Assembly (NCBI GenBank): GCA_022766605.1
Contig: JALEOH010000030.1
Location: 1-64,000, forward strand
Direction: 5' to 3'
Origin: Ezakiella sp.
Lineage (GTDB): Bacteria; Bacillota; Clostridia; Tissierellales; Peptoniphilaceae
Length of the DNA stretch: 64,000 bases
The notes below the pieces were generated by a model. That model saw only the letters and a program-made list of their open reading frames with translations. It did no database searches and was not told the origin of the DNA. Positions 15,334 through 17,677 of this stretch are shown here, piece after piece. The translations under genes and the position numbers were made by a program. Numbering within the stretch: position 1 is the stretch's first letter; the number at the start of each line of letters is the position of its first letter.

Positions 15334-15909
15334 ATGGATATTAAAGAGTTGATGATTAAAAGACATGCATTACTGGAAGGACATTTTTGTCTTTCTAGTG
15401 GCAAGCATAGCGATCAATATTTTCAATGTGCAAAGGCGACTGAGTTTGCAGAAGATGCAAACTTAATTGCAAATAAAATTGCAGAAAAACTAAATGAAAA
15501 CAATGTAGGGCCCGATGTTGTTGTTGGCCCTGCTATGGGTGGGATAATAATCGGATATGAACTAGCAAGAGTGCTTGGAGTTCGTTCGATATTTACCGAA
15601 AGAGTAGATGGCAAGATGACTTTTAGACGCGGATTTACAATAAAAAAAGGCGAAAAGGTGTTGATATGCGAAGATGTTGTTACAACTGGCAAGAGCAGTA
15701 TGGAGACAGCAAAGGCAATTGAAGAGCTTGGCGGAGAGGTACTTGGCATTGCATCAATAGTGGACAGGACAGTTAGCCACGATGAGCTAGAGCTTCCATT
15801 ATATTCTGCTATAAAGATGGAAGCTGTGCTATATGATCCAGAGGGCTGTCCACTTTGTAAGTCAGGAGTGCCAGTCGAAAAGCCCGGTAGTAGATTTTTA
15901 AAGAAATAA
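15334..15909 (+). CDS. pyrE: Orotate phosphoribosyltransferase
   Basis: Makes OMP from orotate and PRPP. The PRPP-binding motif is intact (LICEDVVTTGKSS near residues 110-122) and the flexible catalytic loop FTERVDGKMTFRRGF lies near 88-102. 191 aa is normal for the clostridial subfamily with a C-terminal CPLCKSG segment. GAGGGAGG precedes the ATG, and the last stop base is shared with the following AcpS-NnrD start. Confidence 0.95.
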   Translation: MDIKELMIKRHALLEGHFCLSSGKHSDQYFQCAKATEFAEDANLIANKIAEKLNENNVGPDVVVGPAMGGIIIGYELARVLGVRSIFTERVDGKMTFRRGFTIKKGEKVLICEDVVTTGKSSMETAKAIEELGGEVLGIASIVDRTVSHDELELPLYSAIKMEAVLYDPEGCPLCKSGVPVEKPGSRFLKK

Positions 15910-17009
15910 TGATTGGAATAGATATAGTTAAAGTTTCGCGATTTCAAGACCTTATCGATAGACGAGGTCTTGATTTTGCACAAAAGATGTTAAATACAAG
16001 TAGCAATGACGTCGATTCGCTTGCTGCTATTTTTGCTGCTAAGGAGGCACTTGGCAAGGCTTTAAAAACAGGCATCAATAGAGATATTTTAAAAAATGCA
16101 AAGCTTATACGCGAGCCTAGCGGGGCTCCTACTATATATTATAATAAAAAACTTTATGAGCTTTCTATTTCACATGATGCAGGCATTGCGGTTGCAGTTG
16201 TAAGTGGATCGGGAAGATATGAGATGGATGAGAAAATACAATCCTTAATAAAGTCCAGGGATCAATATGGAAATAAATCTAGTTTTGGACGGCTTGCAAT
16301 AGTTGCGGGCTCTAAAAAAATGACAGGAGCAGCTGCTTTATCGGCTAATGCCGCCATGAGAACGGGAGTTGGATATACTTATTTATATGTGCCAGAAGAG
16401 CTTATTTCAATTATGCAGCTTAAGACCACTGAGGTCATTGTAGATGATATAAAAAATTTTTATGAGGATATTAAATTAAACGCTATTGCAATAGGCCCAG
16501 GAATCGGTTATGATAGAGATAGAGAGATGATAAATATATTTAATATCTGCAACAAAAACAATATTCCGATATTGGTCGATGCAGATGGATTTTATTATCT
16601 AAAAAAATATAATTTAAAAGCCAATATAATTACTCCCCACGAAATGGAGGCTGCGAGACTTTTGGATGAAGATATTAGCTTTATAAAAGCAAATAGAGAA
16701 CAATCAGCAATAAAATTAAGCAAAAAATACAATGTGATTACTCTATTAAAAGGTAAAGATAGCATTATTACTGATGGAAAAGAAGTATTTATAAATCAAA
16801 CTGGAAATAGTGGATTGGCAAGTGCTGGAACAGGAGATGTATTATCTGGAATAATATCGAGTCTATTGGCGCAAGGATATGATGCAATAGATGCAGCTCG
16901 CTTAGGCTCTTATATTCATGGAAGAGCGGCAGAGATTTATGCAGAAGAAAAATCAGAGCATTCTTTAATAGCATCTGATATAATAGATTATATGGGTTAT
17001 ATTTTTTAG
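15909..17009 (+). CDS. AcpS-NnrD fusion: holo-ACP synthase plus NAD(P)H-hydrate dehydratase
   Basis: Residues 1 to about 108 are an AcpS domain, which moves phosphopantetheine from CoA to acyl carrier protein. GIDIV carries metal-ligand Asp5, FAAKEA carries Glu46, and a SISHD motif is near residue 90. About 12 residues between these acids are missing relative to B. subtilis AcpS. Residues about 115-366 are the ribokinase-like NnrD domain that dehydrates damaged NAD(P)H hydrates: AGSKKMTGAAALSA, DADGFY, TPHEMEAARLL and AGTGDVLSGI (catalytic Asp) are all visible. The usual epimerase half (NnrE) is absent. In Firmicutes these are commonly adjacent genes; one reading frame joins them here without a stop. 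The gene is coupled to pyrE. Confidence 0.9.
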   Translation: MIGIDIVKVSRFQDLIDRRGLDFAQKMLNTSSNDVDSLAAIFAAKEALGKALKTGINRDILKNAKLIREPSGAPTIYYNKKLYELSISHDAGIAVAVVSGSGRYEMDEKIQSLIKSRDQYGNKSSFGRLAIVAGSKKMTGAAALSANAAMRTGVGYTYLYVPEELISIMQLKTTEVIVDDIKNFYEDIKLNAIAIGPGIGYDRDREMINIFNICNKNNIPILVDADGFYYLKKYNLKANIITPHEMEAARLLDEDISFIKANREQSAIKLSKKYNVITLLKGKDSIITDGKEVFINQTGNSGLASAGTGDVLSGIISSLLAQGYDAIDAARLGSYIHGRAAEIYAEEKSEHSLIASDIIDYMGYIF

Positions 17010-17017
17010 GAGGAATT

Positions 17018-17677
17018 ATGCTAAAATATGGAAAATATTTTTCAGCAGCAGCCATCGTGCTTGCAATATATGTGATAGCAATGCTGATTTTTAAAATACC
17101 AATTGATCCAATTATGGGTTCAATTGTAGCTGGAGCAATTGTTTTAATCATGAGCTCAAGCGATCTAAGAAAAATCAGATCACAATTTCAAGAGATGAGA
17201 AGTCAAGTTGCGGAGTATATCGCTGACAAAGATGCAAAAAAATTCATCGAAAATCATAGTAATTTTATCGACAATGCAAATGACGAGGCGGTTAAGAATA
17301 TGGCAATGCTAAATTTAGGTGGTGCCTATGCGGACATAGGGGAATTCGACAAGGCTAGAGAAATAATTGAGGAAATCGACATGAAAGCTTTTGGAAAAAA
17401 GAATTTAAACAATGCCACAGTTAATATAATTATACTAAAATATAGGATTGGCGATTGGGATGAGGGAGATGCTGATTATGATAGAGCCTTTAATGATAAA
17501 TTGCCAAGTGGAATATTGTATGAGATAGTAGATGTGCTAAGGCATAGGAACAATGAGGATTCACTAAGGAGGCTTTCTGATATGAATCTTAAAGAAGAGA
17601 ATAAAGCATATGGAAATTTGATTTCTACTGCAAAGATGTTATTAGCAAAGGGGATAGATCAAGATGTGCGGATTTAG
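17018..17677 (+). CDS. Membrane-anchored TPR-like protein of unknown function
   Basis: I do not recognise a named family. Two predicted membrane helices (about residues 8-24 and 29-47) are followed by a soluble, helix-rich region. Segments such as AMLNLGGAYADIGEFDKAREIIEEI look like a tetratricopeptide repeat, so a scaffold or protein-binding role is plausible. The start has AGGAGGAATT before ATG. The last 14 nt overlap asnB, so it is part of the long pyr-to-pepF unit. No catalytic motif is visible. Confidence 0.7.
   Translation: MLKYGKYFSAAAIVLAIYVIAMLIFKIPIDPIMGSIVAGAIVLIMSSSDLRKIRSQFQEMRSQVAEYIADKDAKKFIENHSNFIDNANDEAVKNMAMLNLGGAYADIGEFDKAREIIEEIDMKAFGKKNLNNATVNIIILKYRIGDWDEGDADYDRAFNDKLPSGILYEIVDVLRHRNNEDSLRRLSDMNLKEENKAYGNLISTAKMLLAKGIDQDVRI

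Follow-up and report, generated by a model that had tools for sequence, protein, structure and literature searches.

Holo-acyl carrier protein (ACP) synthase (AcpS) of Bacillus subtilis (1f7l/1f80) and Bacillus anthracis (3hyk) stands unfused, and the same is true of the NAD(P)H-hydrate dehydratase (NnrD) of B. subtilis (YxkO; 1kyh/3rph), while in the bifunctional NnrE-NnrD proteins (YjeF; TM0922 of Thermotoga maritima), the dehydratase half follows an N-terminal epimerase. The ligands of YxkO and TM0922 are treated in PMC10148737. In a 2018 paper (PMC5938422), acpS was described as a neighbour of yjeF in seven phyla; the reason was left open, with NADPH use in lipid synthesis suggested for the clustering. 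An association with alanine racemase could not be assigned there to either the epimerase or the dehydratase, because these two are nearly always fused. In the window, the 64,000-nucleotide stretch of Ezakiella sp. DNA analyzed here, AcpS and NnrD were encoded in one polypeptide. This fusion had the fold and the D/K/E/K/H positions in common with the AcpS enzymes, the domain, GxGD motif, and fold in common with YxkO, and the dehydratase half in common with TM0922. On the other hand, it differed from all of them in that its AcpS was joined to NnrD, and its NnrD was preceded by an AcpS domain in the place where TM0922-type proteins carry the epimerase. No description of an AcpS-NnrD fusion, and no paper naming both AcpS and NnrD, was found among the open-access papers searched (domain databases may list the architecture). 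To judge from its sequence, the fusion is a genuine enzyme whose component domains are unremarkable and which occurs widely across the order Tissierellales. It is probably a bifunctional housekeeping enzyme, holo-ACP synthase plus NAD(P)H-hydrate dehydratase, that arose in Tissierellales from acpS and nnrE-nnrD.

The fusion gene (15909..17009, + strand, as are its parts and the gene directly upstream) ran uninterrupted from ATG to TAG and encoded 366 residues. In Pfam profile searches, ACPS (PF01648) matched residues 2-95 (E 2.6e-10; 40.8 bits versus a cut-off of 25) and Carb_kinase/NnrD (PF01256) matched residues 130-361 (E 6.5e-51; 173.6 bits versus a cut-off of 27). The AcpS half scored 50.1 bits with the NCBIfam AcpS equivalog TIGR00516, below the cut-off of 59.8, and is therefore filed in PF01648 and not under that equivalog. 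In the Pfam search, no part of the frame matched the YjeF_N epimerase domain (PF03853), which distinguishes the protein from bifunctional NnrE-NnrD. The initial annotation, which had placed AcpS and NnrD in a single 366-residue frame and had described the NnrE half as absent, was thus correct on both points, and the absence extended to the genome level: PF03853 was not found by profile search in any of the six Ezakiella genomes (control positive in 13 of 14 genomes). A frame or assembly error joining two genes has a negligible probability and is refuted by the unbroken frame in relatives, which was found in 56 of 61 genomes (the window genome, G000, and 60 relatives) and also in named isolates. 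Upstream of the fusion lay a four-gene run with Pfam matches to OMPdecase, DHODB Fe-S, DHO_dh, and phosphoribosyltransferase, constituting a pyr cluster; the stop codon of the phosphoribosyltransferase gene (15334..15909), which by its position would be pyrE, shared one base with the ATG of the fusion. Genes for a 219-residue protein, asparagine synthase, and an M3 peptidase followed downstream, the first of which (17018-17677) gave only a sub-threshold Pfam match (RPN7).

In the AcpS half (residues 1-100; 15909..16208), Asp5 (15921..15923), Glu46 (16044..16046), and Lys50 were conserved in all 56 fusions, Lys45 in 55 (Tyr in G003), and His89 of the SISH motif (16173..16175) also in 55 (Asn in G039). 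We take Asp5 and Glu46 to be the metal-ligand positions of AcpS, and the following Lys and the His of SxSH to be further signature positions. The two presumed ligands were separated by 40 residues in all six Ezakiella genomes and by 44-48 in the other 50 fusions, a difference of 4-8 residues; compared with B. anthracis AcpS (3hyk), the stretch was 9 residues shorter net (a 10-residue gap minus a 1-residue insertion in the alignment), so that the shortening proposed in the initial annotation was real, but its size of approximately 12 residues was not. The site of the Ezakiella-specific deletion, residues 29-34 (15993..16010), formed, in the structural model, a loop that connects helix 21-28 to helix 35-51, and the Ezakiella AcpS half would have been trimmed of one short helix. 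A second shortening, between Glu46 and His89 (39-43 residues versus 48-55 in the rest), was common to other members of the family. Since the structure comparison with the model of the whole protein (pLDDT 87.8) barely probed the AcpS half, this half was modelled alone (residues 1-108; pLDDT 93.7). The best match was the AcpS-CoA complex 1f7l (Z 14.5, rmsd 1.9, 101 aligned), and structures of AcpS enzymes bound to CoA and to 3',5'-ADP were among the matches. The conserved catalytic residues and the predicted fold suggest that the AcpS half is a holo-ACP synthase, which would move 4'-phosphopantetheine from CoA onto ACP.

A candidate target was present in Ezakiella. The fusion gave the only PF01648 match in the window genome, that is, the only phosphopantetheinyl transferase domain detected, and no PF01648 match besides the fusion was obtained by profile search in G000-G003. 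The single PP-binding match of the window genome contained a DSL motif and adjoined a PlsX-family gene (plsX), and a PP-binding protein was found in all six Ezakiella genomes, as were DegV-type proteins; a PlsC-type acyltransferase was detected in five of the six (not in G002, which is 71% complete). None of the six gave a match to ketoacyl synthase (control positive in 14 of 14) or to the FabA/FabZ family (control positive in 9 of 14). The lack of these matches together with the retention of PP-binding proteins suggests that Ezakiella appears to rely on imported fatty acids. The Ezakiella AcpS half would most likely serve the ACP encoded beside plsX, and holo-ACP would then function in phospholipid assembly from imported fatty acids, by a pathway modelled on known enzymology. 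Alternatively, the Ezakiella AcpS half may be decaying and no longer load ACP, with the NnrD half alone remaining active. The Ezakiella-specific deletion, the score below the TIGR00516 cut-off, and the lack of ketoacyl synthase and FabZ matches are in line with decay, as is the fusion of the Ezakiella genome G003 (L002:1501-2628), in which Tyr replaced Lys45 and the AcpS half gave no PF01648 match; the substitution and missing match in G003, taken with the TIGR00516 score, make a loss of AcpS function possible in some members. However, the Asp, the Glu, Lys50, and His89 were conserved in all six Ezakiella genomes, the AcpS fold was predicted with confidence, and PP-binding proteins were retained throughout (also in G003) with no second PF01648 match in G000-G003, so that decay is quite unlikely.

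The NnrD half comprised residues 106-366 (16224..17006), of which residues 106-362 matched the TIGR00196 NnrD model (186.9 bits versus a cut-off of 129.85). In its GTGD motif (residues 307-310; 16827..16838), Gly307, Gly309, and Asp310 were invariant in an alignment of 14 sequences (A1). Residues 106-366 of the whole-protein model were superimposable on TM0922 (2ax3) with Z 34.9 and rmsd 1.9 over 255 aligned residues, and the match to B. subtilis NnrD (3rph) had Z 33.1. These similarities point to an ADP/ATP-dependent NAD(P)H-hydrate dehydratase, and the C-terminal half would regenerate NAD(P)H from S-NAD(P)H-hydrate. NnrD-like matches were also noted in 27 of 50,697 phage records (for example, PV036440.1:1866-2666); the best 5 of the 27 covered the NnrD part only, with 35-38% identity at best among the matches listed.

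The fused fraction of 56/61, which is given for this core sample only, included all six Ezakiella genomes and was obtained by genome search and frame reading. The five unfused genomes differed from one another: G009 had a lone AcpS frame of 114 residues (L092:1501-1845), followed directly by a frame that presumably encodes a MazF-type protein, and NnrD was not found in this genome; G010 had AcpS and NnrD as two separate adjoining frames (L093:1474-2683); neither domain was found in G044; AcpS was separate and NnrE was fused to NnrD in G049; and AcpS, NnrD, and NnrE occupied three separate frames in G054. In a wider sample of the order, 240 of 249 genomes matched the fusion alignment. The 80 loci retained from named records comprised 6 fused loci, 8 with a separate AcpS frame directly upstream, and 2 with AcpS elsewhere in the locus; no AcpS frame was found within the locus in the other 64. 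The fused records were five named isolates, Ezakiella coagulans, Peptoniphilus lacydonensis, Anaerococcus jeddahensis, Anaerococcus marasmi, and Tissierella simiarum, and a Thermohalobacteraceae MAG. The same fusion was therefore confirmed in relatives and is a feature of the order, not the oddity of one genome that the initial annotation had implied. Candidate fusions in WOR-1, Omnitrophota, and Elusimicrobia were rejected because the tblastn matches spanned two separate frames: in these loci (L128, L136, L139, L143, and L170), the acpS-nnrD order was the same and no epimerase lay between, but AcpS ended in a stop codon, unlike the single-frame fusion of Tissierellales.

The gene order of the phylum suggested how the fusion may have originated. 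Of 28 NnrE-NnrD loci in the phylum, taken as the best-scoring ones and not at random, 27 had an AcpS frame directly upstream on the same strand; no AcpS frame was found at the remaining locus (L057). The view that AcpS and NnrD are usually separate neighbours is therefore valid for the phylum, but not for the order. The epimerase family PF03853 was found in 29 of the 61 genomes of the order, in a frame of its own in all except G049. Starting from an ancestral arrangement with acpS next to nnrE-nnrD, AcpS would have joined the dehydratase within Tissierellales, and the epimerase would have moved to another locus or been lost. In an NnrD tree of 90 of 92 rows (L047 and L049 were dropped at trimming), built by a quick method without bootstrap, the fused state was clustered, with 4 changes versus a mean of 27.5 in shuffles. 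Ezakiella and G007/G014 were placed apart from the other fusions in the free tree with low support; a single clade uniting G010 with every fused row was not rejected (p-AU 0.843), and the constrained tree had a higher likelihood. NnrD of G010 grouped among the fused NnrDs (SH-aLRT 80-92 on the enclosing branches), and the two frames of this genome are therefore read as the probable result of a later division of the fusion. Among the 61 genomes, G010 was the only one with two adjacent open reading frames, the arrangement that had been proposed as a sign of a frame error in the window, and it does not bear out that proposal. The tree is consistent with a single origin of the fusion and a subsequent split in G010, but is no proof of it.

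Fatty acid synthesis genes varied among the fused genomes. A full-length ketoacyl synthase match (PF00109) was present in 30 of the 56 and absent in 26, counted per genome and not per event of loss and with some genomes incomplete (G002, 71%; G015, 81%); weak PF00109 matches at model positions ~160-206 were interpreted as probable thiolases. Twenty-five of the 26 also lacked a FabZ match (G019 had one), and all 26 kept a PP-binding domain among the matches listed; conversely, G037 had ketoacyl synthase and no FabZ match. The presence of the fusion in these 26 genomes indicates that it can be kept without fatty acid elongation, and on this gene content, fatty acid synthesis would not be a requirement for its retention. 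The proposal that AcpS and NnrD stay together since NADPH-hungry fatty acid synthesis needs NAD(P)H repair, as suggested in PMC5938422, is compatible with the 30 genomes that have the synthase; in spite of this, it is weakened by the 26 that keep the fusion and PP-binding domains without it, and we consider it very unlikely as an explanation of the fusion.

Separation of the epimerase from the dehydratase in Tissierellales also bears on the alanine racemase association. In genomes with a separate epimerase (loci L207-L234 and L235-L261), alanine racemase was located within ~5 kb at 16 of 27 AcpS-NnrD loci and at 0 of 28 epimerase loci, and no racemase was found within the flanks at the other 11 AcpS-NnrD loci. 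The 28 epimerase loci leave out G049, in which NnrE is fused to NnrD, and the 27 AcpS-NnrD loci leave out G054 and include, among the 16 positives, the split pair of G010; flanks were shortened at five loci of the epimerase set and at four of the AcpS-NnrD set. The racemase model was built from 8 neighbour frames, all from fusion loci, and 4 of the 16 positive loci supplied seeds (G041, G051, G037, and G023), while 12 did not. These results show that alanine racemase is not necessarily associated with the epimerase, and the published association of yjeF with alanine racemase could conceivably belong to the dehydratase/AcpS side. The simplest cause of this pattern is an inherited old order acpS-nnr-alr, which the epimerase left. 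Near the epimerase, a scan of 36 of 44 frames at 12 loci (L060-L071; first 25 of 51 families) revealed the PLP-dependent beta-eliminating lyase, Orn/Arg decarboxylase, and class IV aminotransferase, each once among the matches listed, which fits the published vitamin B6 link of the epimerase rather than the reading of the racemase on the dehydratase side. The biotin-ligase family was also observed in at least 3, and BioY in at least 2, of the 36 frames flanking the epimerase.

NnrD crystals have bound CoA-like ligands, and this observation, together with the CoA and 3',5'-ADP complexes among the structural matches of the AcpS half and the persistence of the fusion across the order, including the 26 genomes without full-length ketoacyl synthase, favors a coupling of the two halves, in which the dehydratase is regulated or scaffolded through the binding of CoA, 3',5'-ADP, or ACP to the AcpS half, or the influence runs in the opposite direction. 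However, the halves were split in G010 and NnrD was not found in G009, so that coupling is not indispensable, and we regard it as unlikely. Similarly improbable is the reading of the fusion as a sign that ACP activation is directly linked in function to NAD(P)H repair, independently of fatty acid synthesis, with CoA or 3',5'-ADP (the by-product of AcpS) tuning the dehydratase or the AcpS assembly scaffolding it. In the preferred reading, that of a bifunctional housekeeping enzyme, AcpS and NnrD would stay joined because they are expressed together, not because they share a reaction. Neighbourhood does not prove function; Tissierellales, on the other hand, naturally separate the variables, with AcpS fused to the dehydratase, the epimerase located elsewhere, and fatty acid synthesis undetected in some members. 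Both questions raised in PMC5938422 can thus be tested on a single protein and a single group of genomes, and the value of the fusion lies in the natural experiment that it offers on the co-occurrence of acpS with genes for NAD(P)H repair.
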